Positions 2,460 through 64,000 of a stretch of 64,000 nucleotides of DNA are shown piece after piece. How positions within the stretch are numbered: position 1 is the first letter of the stretch; each line of letters starts with the position of its first letter. The notes below the pieces were generated by a model. That model did no database searches and was not told where the DNA came from. It saw nothing but the letters and a program-made list of their open reading frames with translations. The position numbers and the translations under genes were made by a program. Source of the stretch: Candidatus Gastranaerophilales bacterium (GTDB taxonomy: Bacteria; Cyanobacteriota; Vampirovibrionia; Gastranaerophilales; CAJFVJ01). The stretch covers positions 124,001 through 188,000 of the forward strand of contig CALUSR010000003.1 in NCBI GenBank assembly GCA_944323485.1. Reading direction: 5' to 3'.

Positions 2460-2996
2460 CTAATATTCTATCCCTTGTCTTGCCATAACTCCCGTATCAA
2501 AGTAGTGCTTAATGGGTTTCATCTCCGTAACGAGATGAGCCATTGCTATCAACTCGGGGTTAGCTCTTCTCCCTGTCAGTACAATCTCCAATTCCTGAGG
2601 CTTGTTCATCAGAGCCTCTTTAATTTCTGAAATTTTTATCATCCCTAAATCAGCACAGATATTAATCTCATCCAAAATAATCAACTGATATTTCCTGCTC
2701 TGGATGGCTTCTTTGGCAAACTGCCATCCTCTTCTTGCTTCTTTGAAATCTTCAATACAAACATTGTGAGAATAAACCACTCTGTCCATACCGAATTGCG
2801 CTACTTCAAAGTTTGGCAAAAATTTTGACGCAGACATCATTTCGCCATAGTAGTTAGCACCATTATCCCCTTTTGTGAACTGAATCATAAGCACCTTCCA
2901 CCCATGACCCAAAGCTCTCAGTGCCAATCCCAAAGATGCTGTTGTTTTCCCTTTTCCGTCCCCTGTGTAAATCTGAATGTAGCCGTTTTGTAACAT
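2460..2996 (-). CDS. cobO: Corrinoid adenosyltransferase (CobO/BtuR family)
   Basis: The enzyme transfers the adenosyl group of ATP to reduced corrinoids to make adenosylcobamide. The protein has 178 residues with the P-loop GDGKGKTT at residues 12-19. The ALGHGWKVLMIQFTKG and LIILDEIN blocks are typical of the CobA/CobO/BtuR family. No other cobalamin synthesis genes are nearby, which would suit salvage of imported corrinoids. The likely Shine-Dalgarno sequence GGAGG lies 13 nt upstream of the ATG, a little farther than usual. A corrinoid-using operon occurs at 60-64 kb. Confidence 0.93.
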   Translation of the reverse strand: MLQNGYIQIYTGDGKGKTTASLGLALRALGHGWKVLMIQFTKGDNGANYYGEMMSASKFLPNFEVAQFGMDRVVYSHNVCIEDFKEARRGWQFAKEAIQSRKYQLIILDEINICADLGMIKISEIKEALMNKPQELEIVLTGRRANPELIAMAHLVTEMKPIKHYFDTGVMARQGIEY

Positions 2997-59583: not shown

Positions 59584-60024
59584 TTATTTAACTTGAAACG
59601 GACACTTGCTGCACCTCGCCTTGGGATGTTTTATTAAGTTATCTTCAAGGTCATACATCTCTTCTATATGAGCAACAAGAGAATTTCCGCATACAGGACA
59701 TTTCAACCCCTCATAAATACCATCAAGAATACACAGTCTGATTGACTCTATAGCATCATCAAGACTTTTGTGCGATTCATCAAAATGTTTTTCATGTTTT
59801 TTAATATCAATCAACGACAACCTCAATGCCTTCGCAAGACGCTGTCTGATAGTTGAAGGTAAAAACAGCTCCTGGGCTGATTCTATTCTTTCAATCATCT
59901 CAACCGGAACATTAGCCTTATGAGCAAGACCTGTCTGAGATAAACCCATTTTTTCTCTTGTTTGTGATATAAACTGAGCCAGCGACATCTTTTCCATGTT
60001 AAGTATTTTATTTTTTCCCCTCAT
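59584..60024 (-). CDS. XRE-family regulator with C-terminal zinc ribbon
   Basis: The 146-residue protein has an N-terminal XRE helix-turn-helix (about residues 14-70: FISQTREKMGLSQTGLAHKA) and a C-terminal part with two CxxC pairs (CPVCGNSL and CSKCPF) resembling a zinc ribbon. A HxxEM-type linker joins them. No good ribosome binding site precedes the ATG at 60024, and ATGs at residues 10 and 13 are alternatives. It lies 75 bp upstream of dnaA in the same direction, so a role in controlling dnaA is possible. This fusion is not a family I recognise. Confidence 0.78.
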   Translation of the reverse strand: MRGKNKILNMEKMSLAQFISQTREKMGLSQTGLAHKANVPVEMIERIESAQELFLPSTIRQRLAKALRLSLIDIKKHEKHFDESHKSLDDAIESIRLCILDGIYEGLKCPVCGNSLVAHIEEMYDLEDNLIKHPKARCSKCPFQVK

Positions 60025-60071: not shown

Positions 60072-61160
60072 TTGAAAGAAAATTTATCACTCACATCAAC
60101 AGCAATCGGAAGCCTGCCACACAACAGCGCACAGGCGGCACTCGACCTGATTTTTTCAACACCGATAGATATCCCCTTCTGGCCTCAGCTCTCAAAAGTA
60201 AGCCCAAAAGAAGACATGATTATTCAGCTGAATGAGAATATCCCGGGGCTTAAATTTGATGAAGAAAATAACAAACTGTTCTTTGATACCGAATCAGAAG
60301 AATTTTTCCTCGGACTTGAAGAATTTTTTGAAGATTATGAAAAAATTACCACGGAAAAAAACTTTGACTTGCTCGAAAAATATGCAATAAGCGAAAAGTT
60401 TGCATGCTCTATTCATCCTTTTCTTGAAAAAATCAAAGAAACAAAACCCTTCTATGCAAAAGGACATGTAACAGGCCCTTTCAGCTGGGGAGTAAGCATC
60501 TGTGACCCTGAAAAAAAAGCAGCATTCTATGATGAAACTCTAAGAGATATAATCATTAAAGCTCTCACCCTGAAAGCTCTCTGGCAGGTTATAAACATCA
60601 AAAAAGCATCACCTGAAACAACACCCATAATCTTTCTTGATGAACCGACACTATCACAATATGGAACATCGGCATTTCTTACGGTAACAAAAGAAGATAT
60701 AACAAACAGCATAAGCGAAATTTCACACGTTTTGAGAGATAACGGAGCTCTCATAGGCGTCCATTGCTGCGGAAAAACAAACTGGTCACTGATTACTGAC
60801 AGCGATGTTGATATTCTCAACTTCGACGGTTATTTCTTCGGAGAAAGCCTCTCAGCTTACTCAAAAGAAATAGACGGTTTCCTCAAAAAAGGAGGACTGA
60901 TTGCCTGGGGAATGGTTCCGACTCTTGATCCTGATGCTCTTGAGAAAGAAGATGTGAACTCACTTCTTGAAAAATTTGAAGCTGATAAAAATTATCTCCT
61001 CAAAAACGGCATAAATGAAAAACAACTCCTCTCTCAAAGCATAATAACCCCCTCATGCGGCGCAGGAGTGCTAAGCGAAGAACTTGCACAAAAAGCAATC
61101 AGGCTTACAAAAGAGCTTGCTGATACACTGAAAAACACTTACGGGGGAACATCAAAATGA
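60072..61160 (+). CDS. Core-MetE-fold methyltransferase, putative folate-independent methionine synthase
   Basis: The 362-residue protein belongs to the UROD/MetE superfamily. The C-terminal catalytic MetE features are visible: FLDEPTL (D190-P192), an HxC pair H231/C233 in GVHCCGKTNW, D252 at the usual Glu zinc-ligand position, and C329 in ITPSCGAG. There is no N-terminal MetE half, so it fits the short core-MetE type. Known core-MetE enzymes of anaerobes take methyl groups from corrinoid proteins rather than from folate. The start is a TTG with AAGGA 8 nt upstream. It overlaps the CooC-like gene by 4 bp. Assignment to methionine synthesis is inferred; a methylcobamide methyltransferase is an alternative. 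Confidence 0.8.
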   Translation: MKENLSLTSTAIGSLPHNSAQAALDLIFSTPIDIPFWPQLSKVSPKEDMIIQLNENIPGLKFDEENNKLFFDTESEEFFLGLEEFFEDYEKITTEKNFDLLEKYAISEKFACSIHPFLEKIKETKPFYAKGHVTGPFSWGVSICDPEKKAAFYDETLRDIIIKALTLKALWQVINIKKASPETTPIIFLDEPTLSQYGTSAFLTVTKEDITNSISEISHVLRDNGALIGVHCCGKTNWSLITDSDVDILNFDGYFFGESLSAYSKEIDGFLKKGGLIAWGMVPTLDPDALEKEDVNSLLEKFEADKNYLLKNGINEKQLLSQSIITPSCGAGVLSEELAQKAIRLTKELADTLKNTYGGTSK

Positions 61161-61897
61161 CTCTGACTCTTGCGATAATCGGCAAAAGCGGCAGCGGAAA
61201 AACAACCGTCACAAAAGCATTCATGCGTGTGATGAAAGAAAAATATCCGGAAAAATCAATCCTTCTCTTTGACAACGACTTAACCTGCGAACTCGGGCAT
61301 ACCTTCGGGCTTGACATAAGAAACACCGTATATGGAATAAGAAGCGGCAAACACGAGTATAAAACAGGTATTCCGAGCAAAATGACCAAACAGGAATACA
61401 TAGAATGGGCGCTTGAAGACATCGTCGTCAACCTTGAGAAAAATGTTGATATTCTTGTATCCTGGTTAATCGGCTCAAAAGATTGCCGGTGCCCTATTAC
61501 CCAGCAAATAAACGATGCCCTTGCAAAATTTTTCAGACAGTATGATATAGTCATTTTCGACTGCGAACTTGATTTGAAATACCTTAACCAGCTTGTTGAC
61601 TGCCATATTGATACGGCGCTTATTATTGCGGAACCGACTGAAGAATCGGCAAGACTTGCGGCAAGAATAGAAGAATATTCCGCAAAATATGCAACAGGAG
61701 GACAAATCGGAGTTGTTCTCAACAAAATTCAAGGGAACACTGATGAAACAGTATCAAAGATGATTAAAGACAATCATATCGATATACTTGGCGTAATACC
61801 CTATGACAAAGATATAAACGGCATCACAAAAGAATCAGAAACAGTTCAAAATGCAATCAAAAATATGCTGTTCAGACTAAACATCGCAATTGATTGA
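61157..61897 (+). CDS. CooC-like P-loop ATPase (corrinoid or nickel enzyme accessory)
   Basis: The 246-residue protein is a MinD/ParA-type ATPase with P-loop GKSGSGKT at residues 9-16 and a CxC motif C110/C112 in SKDCRCPITQQ. The position and context of CxC resemble CooC, which inserts nickel into CO dehydrogenase; the CooC-type C-terminal region is also similar (HIDTALIIAEPTEESARLAA). AcsF-like homologues serve acetyl-CoA synthase. It overlaps core-MetE by 4 bp and precedes folD by 9 bp. Its client enzyme is not in the window. Confidence 0.8.
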   Translation: MTLTLAIIGKSGSGKTTVTKAFMRVMKEKYPEKSILLFDNDLTCELGHTFGLDIRNTVYGIRSGKHEYKTGIPSKMTKQEYIEWALEDIVVNLEKNVDILVSWLIGSKDCRCPITQQINDALAKFFRQYDIVIFDCELDLKYLNQLVDCHIDTALIIAEPTEESARLAARIEEYSAKYATGGQIGVVLNKIQGNTDETVSKMIKDNHIDILGVIPYDKDINGITKESETVQNAIKNMLFRLNIAID

Positions 61898-61906
61898 GGT
61901 AGAAAA

Positions 61907-62752
61907 ATGATTTTAATCGACGGAAAAACTACAGCAAAAAAAGTTTTTGACAAAATCAAAACAGAAACTGAAAATCTTGAAAAAAAACCGGCAATTGCCG
62001 TCATAATCGTAGGAAATGATCCTGCCAGCAAGATTTATGTCAACAGAAAACACAAAAAAGCAAAAGAAGTGGGAATAAACTCTCTTGTCATAGAATTCGA
62101 CGAAAATATCTCTCAGGAAGAACTCGAATCAAAAATAAATGAACTCAACAACGATGACTCAATCAATGCAATTCTTGTTCAACTTCCGCTGCCAAAGCAC
62201 CTGAACACGTACAGGATTATAGAAAAAATCCTTCCAATAAAAGATGTCGACGGGTTCCACCCGGAGAACGCAGGTAAAATAAACATAGGCATAGAAGCTT
62301 ATGCAGCCCCATGTACTCCACTCGGTGTTATGACCCTGCTTGATGAATACAAAATCAATCCTGAAGGCAAGCATGCCGTTATCATCGGGCGCTCAAACAT
62401 AGTCAGCAAACCTCTTGCATCAATGCTGTTATCAAAAAATGCAACAGTCACAATATGCCACTCAAAAACACAAAATCTGAAAGAAATCGCATCAACTGCA
62501 GATATCCTTGTTGTGGCGACAGGTAAGGCGAATATAGTTACTTCTGATTATGTCAAACAGGGAGCTGTTGTTATAGATGTCGGAATCTCTCGGGATAAAG
62601 ACGGAAAAATTCACGGCGATGTTGACTTTGATAATGTGGCGGAAAAAACATCATACATTACTCCTGTTCCAGGAGGAGTAGGAGCTATGACCATTGCAAT
62701 GCTTATGCAAAACACACTGAGATTATACAAAATACAGAGAGGTCAAAAATGA
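61907..62752 (+). CDS. folD: Methylenetetrahydrofolate dehydrogenase / cyclohydrolase FolD
   Basis: FolD interconverts methylene-, methenyl- and formyl-tetrahydrofolate with NADP. The 281-residue protein has the catalytic Lys region (SKIYVNRKHKKAKEVGI), LVQLPLPKHL, VDGFHPENAG, the Rossmann GRSNIVSKPLASMLL, and PVPGGVGAMTIAMLMQNT. It lies between the CooC-like gene and the MeTr-type gene and overlaps the latter by 4 bp. It should feed methylene-THF, which after reduction to methyl-THF can serve the next enzyme. Confidence 0.95.
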   Translation: MILIDGKTTAKKVFDKIKTETENLEKKPAIAVIIVGNDPASKIYVNRKHKKAKEVGINSLVIEFDENISQEELESKINELNNDDSINAILVQLPLPKHLNTYRIIEKILPIKDVDGFHPENAGKINIGIEAYAAPCTPLGVMTLLDEYKINPEGKHAVIIGRSNIVSKPLASMLLSKNATVTICHSKTQNLKEIASTADILVVATGKANIVTSDYVKQGAVVIDVGISRDKDGKIHGDVDFDNVAEKTSYITPVPGGVGAMTIAMLMQNTLRLYKIQRGQK

Positions 62753-63666
62753 AACTAATAGGCGAAAATATTCATATAATTTCAAAAAGAACAAGAACAG
62801 CCATCGAGGAAAAAGACAAAGAATATATCAGGAATCTTGCAAAAAAACAAACAGATGTCGACTGGATAGACCTGAATATAGGTCCTGCAAGAAAACAGCA
62901 GGGGACAATGAGATGGCTGATTGATACGGTAAGAGAAGTCAGCGATAAACCTCTCAGTTTTGATACAACAAATCTTGATGAAATTAAATCAGCCCTGCAA
63001 TATGTCGGCACCCCTCAAAAAAGTTTGATTAACAGCACAAACGCCGATGATGAAAGGCTCAATCCTCTGAGTGACATTACAGCGGAATACGGCTGCAGCC
63101 TTATAGCTCTGACCATGGATAACAAATCAGGAATCCCAAAAGAAGCCGACCTCCGCCTTGAGATGGCCTGCAAAATCATAGAAAAAACAACGGAATCAGG
63201 AATTGACAACTCAAAAATATTTATCGACCCTCTTGTTCTTCCGGTGTGTGTAGACCAGTCACAAGCGCTCGAGTCGCTCAACTCCATCAGAATGTTCAAA
63301 GAAGCATTTGACCCTCAAGTCAATACAACCATTGGACTTTCAAATATTTCTAACGGCTCGCCAAAAGAACTGCGTCCGTTGATAAACAGAGTTTACCTCA
63401 CCATGGCATCAGGATGCGGGCTGGATAGTGCAATAGTCGATGCCTGCGATGAAGAGTTAATCAGAACAGTAAAAATGCTTGACTCATCAACGCCTCAAAA
63501 TAGTACGGATGAACTCCTGCTTAATATATACAATATGATGCTCAACTTCGACGACCTCGAAAACGTATCCTATGACAAAACAAACGATGATGAGGTAAAA
63601 ATCTTTAAGACAGCTGAAATTCTTATGAACAAACATATTTATTCCCACAACTATCTGGATGTGTAA
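62749..63666 (+). CDS. Methyltetrahydrofolate:corrinoid protein methyltransferase (MeTr/AcsE-like)
   Basis: The 305-residue protein has the pterin-binding TIM barrel of the DHPS/MeTr superfamily: IGENIHIISKRTRTAI, WIDLNIGPARKQQG, LSFDTTNLDEI (substrate Asp/Asn positions) and SLINSTNADD. The single-domain length fits AcsE, which methylates the corrinoid iron-sulfur protein. The usual full Wood-Ljungdahl genes are not in the window. It is coupled to folD and ends 1 bp before the response regulator start. Confidence 0.85.
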   Translation: MKLIGENIHIISKRTRTAIEEKDKEYIRNLAKKQTDVDWIDLNIGPARKQQGTMRWLIDTVREVSDKPLSFDTTNLDEIKSALQYVGTPQKSLINSTNADDERLNPLSDITAEYGCSLIALTMDNKSGIPKEADLRLEMACKIIEKTTESGIDNSKIFIDPLVLPVCVDQSQALESLNSIRMFKEAFDPQVNTTIGLSNISNGSPKELRPLINRVYLTMASGCGLDSAIVDACDEELIRTVKMLDSSTPQNSTDELLLNIYNMMLNFDDLENVSYDKTNDDEVKIFKTAEILMNKHIYSHNYLDV

Positions 63667-63667
63667 G

Positions 63668-64000
63668 ATGAAAAAAATATTCGCAGTAGATGACCATATA
63701 GAGTGGCTTAATTTTTATAAATCAATTCTGCCCGAGTATTTTGATGACTTTTCCTATACAACAGCCATGAGCGCAAAGGAAGGAATCAAAACAGTTGATG
63801 CCCATCCGGATAACTACTTTGATTTTATACTCTCCGATTTGGAGATGGAAACAGATACCCCTGAAAAATGCGCCGGTATGTATTTCATCAAAAATATCCT
63901 GCATAAAACAGATAAAAAGAAAATAACTATTATCTCTGCATCTTTCAACATAGACTCTGTTGCAAAAGAACTCGGAGTCAAATTTATAGCAAAAAGAAGC
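63668..64000 (+). CDS. Response regulator receiver domain (truncated by window edge)
   Basis: I read 111 residues from the ATG at 63668. It begins MKKIFAVDDHIEW (acidic pair D8/D9), holds the phosphoacceptor D in FDFILSDLEME and ends with KFIAKRS, where the conserved Lys is expected. It runs out of the window to the right, so any output domain is unseen. It begins 1 bp after the methyltransferase stop and is probably in the same operon, suggesting that signalling is linked to the methyl-transfer genes. Confidence 0.85.
   Translation, partial: MKKIFAVDDHIEWLNFYKSILPEYFDDFSYTTAMSAKEGIKTVDAHPDNYFDFILSDLEMETDTPEKCAGMYFIKNILHKTDKKKITIISASFNIDSVAKELGVKFIAKRS

Follow-up and report, generated by a model that had tools for sequence, protein, structure and literature searches.

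The closest described systems are the core methionine synthases, and in the open-access PMC literature only Price 2021 and Deobald 2020 were found to treat a core methionine synthase together with the corrinoid iron-sulfur protein (CoFeSP). In Price 2021 (PMC7857596), CoFeSP is predicted to be the methyl donor of MesB, and MesB is tied to organisms with the Wood-Ljungdahl pathway. For Dehalococcoides mccartyi, a route from acetyl-CoA via AcsB to CoFeSP and on to core-MetE has been proposed, with acsE and metF lacking (Deobald 2020, PMC7005905). MetH can also be split into separate modules, as another paper describes for examples such as Phaeobacter and Ruegeria MtgCDE (PMC12478193), and a further report gives an acsE match in another bacterium with acsBCD not found (PMC7000372). 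Here we analysed a 64,000-nucleotide stretch of DNA from a Candidatus Gastranaerophilales bacterium (G000:C3:124001-188000, hereafter the window; genome of 2.05 Mb in 8 contigs, 99.5% complete). At its right-hand end lies a tight, co-directional cluster of five genes (60072-64048, + strand), the last of which extends 48 bp beyond the window. Our results indicate that the products of this cluster, together with proteins encoded elsewhere in the genome, probably form a split methionine synthase in which the Wood-Ljungdahl pathway is represented by its methyl branch but not by its carbonyl branch.

The first gene of the cluster encodes a MesB-like core methionine synthase (60072..61160, +; 362 amino acids (aa)) and begins at a TTG start with AAGGA immediately upstream. 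It is followed by genes for a CooC-like ATPase of the MinD class (61157..61897, +; 246 aa), for FolD, a methylene-tetrahydrofolate (methylene-THF) dehydrogenase/methenyl-THF cyclohydrolase (61907..62752, +; 281 aa), for MeTr, an AcsE-type methyl-THF:CoFeSP methyltransferase (62749..63666, +; 305 aa), and for a response regulator made of a single receiver domain (63659..64000 within the window and ending at 64048 = C3:188048, +; 129 aa). An initial annotation of the window had described these genes as tightly packed, overlapping by 4 bp or lying 1-9 bp apart. The tight packing in one direction stands, but the junctions are, in order, a 4-bp overlap, a 9-bp gap, a 4-bp overlap and an 8-bp overlap. 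FolD and the pterin-binding barrel (MeTr) that had been named there were both confirmed by family matches.

We found that the same gene order recurs in the loci of relatives. Downstream of mesB, cooC was present in 17/17 of the relatives' loci examined, folD in 16/17 and MeTr in 7/17. In a larger set, which overlaps these 17 loci and consists of the best 80 of 367 MesB-like loci, cooC follows mesB in 75 of the 79 loci with room for it and folD in 66/75, and MeTr lies at most 4 kb from mesB in 5 of 65 loci with room. These best 80 of 367 loci come from close relatives (at least 46% identity), most of them titled Gastranaerophilales or uncultured bacteria, and the nearest named relative among them is Candidatus Adamsella avium, whose core-MetE protein is 94% identical (L131). 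Because the order recurs in this way, the grouping of mesB, cooC, folD and MeTr is not a product of chance. Among the 17 loci, the receiver-domain gene was confined to families f1 and f5. A mesB-cooC pair of the Gastranaerophilales type was also seen in L188, a locus titled Heliobacteriaceae; the title may be a misnomer.

With 362 aa and a predicted structure of a single barrel, the MesB-like protein is equivalent to the C-terminal half of MetE, without the folate-binding N-terminal half. Together with its HCDC zinc site, this is its likeness to the half-size MesB of D. mccartyi. The HxC/C zinc ligands reported in the initial annotation were borne out, as H231, C233, D252 and C329 are invariant in 44/44 aligned sequences (own included). 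Either HCDC or HCEC is expected of a MesB zinc site. The spacing of the four ligands is 2/19/77, and the numbering in PMC7857596 gives 2/19/76 for MesB. The ligand positions printed in that paper are 214, 216, 235 and 311 for MesB, 204, 206, 225 and 314 for MesC, and 216, 218, 240 and 301 for MesA, and the spacing in the window protein is closer to that of MesB than to that of MesC or MesA. The same paper gives thresholds of 130 or 173 bits for MesB sequence similarity.

An AlphaFold model of the protein (pLDDT 91.5) forms a barrel, in which DSSP placed the four ligands where strands 227-232, 248-251 and 323-327 end or just past that point. In structural comparison by VIA, the best match of the model was the core methionine synthase 3rpd (Z 26.0, root mean square deviation (rmsd) 2.9, 283 residues aligned). 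Among the MetE rows, most of which gave Z of 22 to 25, the best Z was 25.4, for 1xdj, where model residues 1-358 lie on residues 395-733 of the C-terminal half (rmsd 2.9, 293 aligned); two MetE entries align through their N-terminal half instead (Z 22.8 and 22.9). Foldseek ranked MetE 4l6h first (1.8e-10), with 3rpd at 3.2e-7 and uroporphyrinogen decarboxylase (UROD) at 5.1e-6. In a MAFFT alignment, S14 (in IGSxP), D190 (in DEP), D252 and C329 align to the matching residues of MetE. The modelled structure places the protein nearer to the core methionine synthases than to the UROD enzymes, and the model settles its likeness to MetE better than sequence does.

The initial annotation had also asked for the state of metE, metH and metF in the whole genome. 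We detected no MetE (PF01717) and no MetH domain there, with PF02574 and PF02965 both absent, and metF is present on contig C1, above the TIGR00676 cut-off. This search was extended to a sample of 60 genomes, which comprises our own and 59 others of the order (taken as Gastranaerophilales by named relatives); 50 of them reach 90% completeness or more with contamination of 5% or less. Full MetE (PF01717) was found in 3/60 and the homocysteine domain of MetH (PF02574) in 0/60. Like MesB, then, the MesB-like protein occurs in genomes with CoFeSP and is often the sole methionine synthase found.

The remaining partners of the methyl branch were identified in the same genome. MeTr matches the solved MeTr 2e7f at 5e-51; its last ~60 residues do not align to that structure, and it keeps the equivalents of D75, N96, D160 and N199, which we take to be the methyl-THF residues of the enzyme. 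It lies under the NCBIfam naming cut-offs, with 224 bits for PRK07535 (cut-off 259) and 186 for CODH_ACS_meth (370). Both CoFeSP subunits, which had been sought to the right of 64000, do exist, but they lie on contig C4 and not beside the cluster: acsC at L024:8753-10072 (-) and acsD at L024:10077-10955 (-), directly downstream of the flagellar gene fliI. AcsC scored 378 bits against a cut-off of 306 for PRK04165, the acetyl-CoA decarbonylase/synthase gamma subunit in NCBIfam. It contains the 4Fe-4S domain PF04060 (38 bits, cut-off 23) and PF03599 (205, cut-off 24.8), and its best solved relative is CoFeSP 2h9a (2e-74). AcsD matched 4djd_D at 9e-41 and PF03599 above cut-off; its best NCBIfam match is the delta subunit, under the naming cut-off (211 of 280 bits).

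Several features of the acsCD surroundings were also observed. In G000, acsD overlaps the 3' end of fliI (L024:10952-14070, -) by 4 bp, and acsD follows fliI in G001, G006 and G012 as well. The AcsC proteins of family f2 are just 375-386 aa long (L026, L027, L028, L033, L034 and L035), compared with 439-465 in the other aligned families. What they lack is part of the middle of the barrel, and both the 4Fe-4S domain and the corrinoid part at the C terminus are retained. DUF2229/HGD-D proteins, which might be an ATP-linked electron donor (reductant), are encoded near acsCD in G000 (L024:5740-6810, -) and in G015 (L030:6030-9523, +). A gene of ~630 aa that overlaps acsD in family f2 was considered as a CoFeSP reactivase and turned out to encode FtsH in the three copies checked.

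We then looked at the carbonyl branch. Acetyl-CoA synthase (ACS; PF03598) was found in 0/60 genomes; the control was positive in two methanogens, with no acetogen among the named controls. Matches to the prismane family (PF03063) were found in 56/60 genomes and were rejected as a sign of carbon monoxide dehydrogenase (CODH), as the seven that were classified (one each of G000, G006, G013, G017, G025, G031 and G059; the others, including both of the same-genus G001, are unclassified) fit no models other than those for hydroxylamine reductase (hybrid cluster). Of the seven, three lie above the naming cut-off and four, including that of G000, below it. The search for cooS or acsB proposed in the initial annotation therefore came to nothing: no ACS gene was found, and the single prismane match of our genome, being closest to solved hybrid cluster proteins, is one of these. 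A divergent hybrid cluster protein at L217:7720-9375 (-) scored just under the NCBIfam hydroxylamine reductase cut-off, and two family f2 copies (G017 and G059) scored lower still.

Gene presence and order, co-occurrence, residue conservation and predicted fold are thus consistent with a route whose methyl direction and chemistry we infer from characterised relatives. FolD would supply methylene-THF, and MetF would reduce it to methyl-THF. MeTr would then hand the methyl group to the cobalt of CoFeSP (AcsCD), and the MesB-like zinc barrel would activate homocysteine and accept the methyl group from AcsCD, yielding methionine. Since no ACS gene was found, CoFeSP would be the methyl carrier for methionine. 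The same sequence, from methyl-THF through MeTr and a corrinoid protein to core-MetE, had been put forward in the initial annotation; our results support it, as most of the checks listed there came out in its favour. Its description of the synthesis as folate-independent applies to the last enzyme only, and the route as a whole would be folate-dependent because the methyl group comes from methyl-THF through MeTr.

Set against the Wood-Ljungdahl methyl branch (FolD, MetF, AcsE and AcsCD), the proteins are the same and so, presumably, is the first methyl transfer. The difference is that no ACS was found here, and no CODH among the classified matches, and that the methyl group would go to homocysteine and not to acetyl-CoA. 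D. mccartyi has AcsB and no AcsE or MetF, whereas AcsE and MetF are present here and no AcsB was found. The arrangement resembles split MetH in having three separate modules that would relay through a corrinoid protein; however, the modules there are of the MetH type (PF02310 for corrinoid, PF02574 for homocysteine), and here they are CoFeSP and a MetE-type barrel.

Co-occurrence across genomes points in the same direction. The 60 genomes include 53 with a MesB-like gene, 52 with a CdhD-family protein (CoFeSP), 50 with MeTr and 49 with MetF. All 52 CdhD-family genomes (best E 5.5e-23 or lower) carry the MesB-like gene, and CoFeSP is missing from 1 of the 53 MesB-like genomes. The association of the MesB-like gene with CoFeSP has a Fisher p of 2e-8 before any correction for ancestry. 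In seven of the 60, MesB-like protein, CoFeSP and MeTr are all absent. Among 382 genomes of the class, for which the share of other orders is unlisted, 199 have a MesB-like match, all of them members of the order. In this class sample, where 29 weak same-class rows of the CdhD search (E from 1.4e-8) were excluded before counting, CoFeSP was present in 151/154 genomes that have one strong MesB-like match (E no higher than 1e-110), in 0/38 with a divergent copy and in 2/7 with two MesB-like matches, so that five two-piece genomes are without CoFeSP.

A number of observations weigh against the proposed methionine synthase. The MesB-like protein has no Pfam match, and its likeness to MesB was set by structure, ligands and CoFeSP rather than by comparison with the D. 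mccartyi sequence. NCBIfam methionine synthase PRK00957 matched it weakly (8.8e-5; 22 bits, cut-off 258), the hhalign probability against MetE was 2%, and a PDB profile search gave no MetE, only pentatricopeptide repeat (PPR) and other unrelated chains; the HxC motif was unaligned with MetE in MAFFT. In VIA, the best UROD also matches well (Z 20.8), as does 4ay8 (Z 19.9), and one MetE chain, 3ppg (Z 20.8), is merely level with the best UROD. The acsCD genes are unlinked to the cluster in G000, and no CoFeSP reactivase was identified. The co-occurrence counts are uncorrected for shared ancestry, and the CdhD count needs one match, which may be one subunit, as in G025, which shows one only. In the class sample, G205, G280 and G320 have CoFeSP and no MesB-like match. 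G053 and G056 have the MesB-like protein and CoFeSP without MeTr and MetF, and G006, G018 and G023 (99, 91 and 88% complete) are without MetF, so methyl-THF is a less certain methyl source in these five genomes.

Some of these points would also fit a different enzyme. The barrel could be another corrinoid methyltransferase of the UROD/MtaA kind, which would pass the methyl group of an unknown substrate to CoFeSP and on to THF, in demethylation catabolism and not in methionine synthesis. Such an enzyme would share the fold, as the Z scores of UROD and of 4ay8 (titled methyltransferase from M. mazei) illustrate, and the case of G053 and G056, with MesB-like protein and CoFeSP but neither MeTr nor MetF, also speaks for it. 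However, 3rpd, which was solved with selenomethionine, exceeds the best UROD by 5.2 Z units, as most MetE rows do by 1.4 to 4.6 units, 3ppg being level. The homocysteine-site motifs with S14 and D190 align with MetE, the H-C-D-C ligands have the spacing of MesB, and the alternative would leave 57/60 genomes without MetE or MetH. We therefore consider this explanation unlikely, and on the objection foreseen in the initial annotation, that a phylogeny might put the protein among the UROD enzymes, the structural comparison favours the core methionine synthases.

Less probable still is that methionine is scavenged and the protein has lost its activity as a synthase, as Price reported for homologs from Chloroflexales. 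What speaks for this are the MesB-like copies of genera g29 and g30 in family f2, which are divergent (E 1e-20 to 1e-69) and belong to 38 genomes without CoFeSP, and the five two-piece-match genomes, also without it. G057 likewise keeps the MesB-like, CooC-like and FolD genes, with CoFeSP, MeTr and MetF not found; its MesB-like copy retains the zinc ligands and has lost the GTSA motif. On the other hand, the four ligands are invariant across the alignment, our own genome retains CoFeSP, MeTr and MetF, and mesB has diverged where CoFeSP is lost, a pattern to be expected of an intact gene that acts together with CoFeSP. The g29 and g30 copies perhaps have a new or lost function. Finally, we regard it as very improbable that a complete Wood-Ljungdahl pathway is present, with MesB just part of it and ACS and CODH missed: the genome does have CoFeSP, MeTr, FolD, MetF and a CooC-like protein, but PF03598 is in none of the 60 genomes and the seven classified prismane matches all fit only hybrid cluster models.

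The role of the CooC-like ATPase in the proposed methionine synthase was considered separately. Its P-loop reads GKSGSGKTT (residues 9-17), with K10, K15 and T16 invariant in 30/30 sequences. The CxC motif named in the initial annotation is real, C110-x-C112 being invariant in 30/30 (own included), and C136 is invariant as well. PMC6006190 gives CooC a deviant Walker A motif, GKGGVGKTT, and a dimer-interface CxC formed by Cys112/Cys114. The window protein thus resembles the nickel-insertion ATPases CooC/AcsF in being a P-loop ATPase with a CxC at nearly the same positions (110/112), and differs from them in its GKSGSGKTT, in its linkage to mesB and in that no ACS was found. CooC was its best match both in sequence and in Foldseek, whereas VIA favoured MinD (1hyq, Z 20.8) over FlhG (4rz2, 19.4) and CooC (19.3), and CooC cannot be told from MinD here by fold alone. 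We call the protein CooC-like, and not CooC, because no CODH/ACS partner was found.

That this ATPase matures a metal enzyme, as was suggested at the outset, we keep as a weak inference: most likely it would mature or reactivate MesB or CoFeSP. The usual nickel clients of CooC were not found, given that no ACS gene was found and the sole prismane match is a hybrid cluster protein. With low confidence we lean towards a role with MesB, because cooC adjoins mesB in 75/79 loci and persists in G057. A more speculative possibility, which we put forward tentatively and hold to be rather less likely than otherwise, is that methionine synthesis in the order runs on a dismantled Wood-Ljungdahl pathway and that a CooC-type ATPase, having no nickel enzyme left to serve, is now a dedicated maturation or reactivation factor for the MesB-like zinc enzyme.

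Other features of the window were also considered. Divergent from mesB lies a gene for an XRE-type helix-turn-helix protein with Cys motifs (59584..60024, -; 146 aa), a candidate regulator of the cluster. A gene of this type occupies the same place in 5/17 relatives' loci and in 8/80 loci (upstream room unchecked). Outside the cluster, a CobO/BtuR protein is encoded at 2460..2996 (-). It had been proposed to supply corrinoid; it is indeed an ATP:corrinoid adenosyltransferase, but alone it is no proof of corrinoid synthesis. No Rfam family reached its gathering score in the window or in three loci scanned with it, and a search for promoters and terminators returned numbers of sites similar to those in shuffled sequence. 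Beyond 64000, on the right, lies a flagellin gene, followed up to L002:20000 by genes that, from inspection of their open reading frames by eye, have housekeeping and two-component functions.

Known parts would thus be combined in a new way, in a gut relative of cyanobacteria. By term search, the eLife 2013 and GBE 2014 papers on the lineage contain no mention of corrinoid, methionine, Wood-Ljungdahl or acetyl-CoA synthase, and the GBE 2014 paper has cobalamin once only, in a legend. In the open-access literature, searched by titles and the starts of abstracts, the arrangement in Gastranaerophilales was not found among the matches listed, and pairing Gastranaerophilales with corrinoid gave nothing in the open-access PMC literature. 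CoFeSP, MeTr and the MesB-like enzyme span much of the order, with no ACS found in 60 genomes, and annotation by MetE or MetH alone would miss any methionine synthase in 57 of them. The divergence of mesB where acsCD is missing offers a natural experiment on the partnership of MesB and CoFeSP. If the pathway is as we propose, methyl transfer from CoFeSP to homocysteine would be separated from carbon fixation and directly testable, and the pathway would tie these bacteria to a supply of corrinoid.

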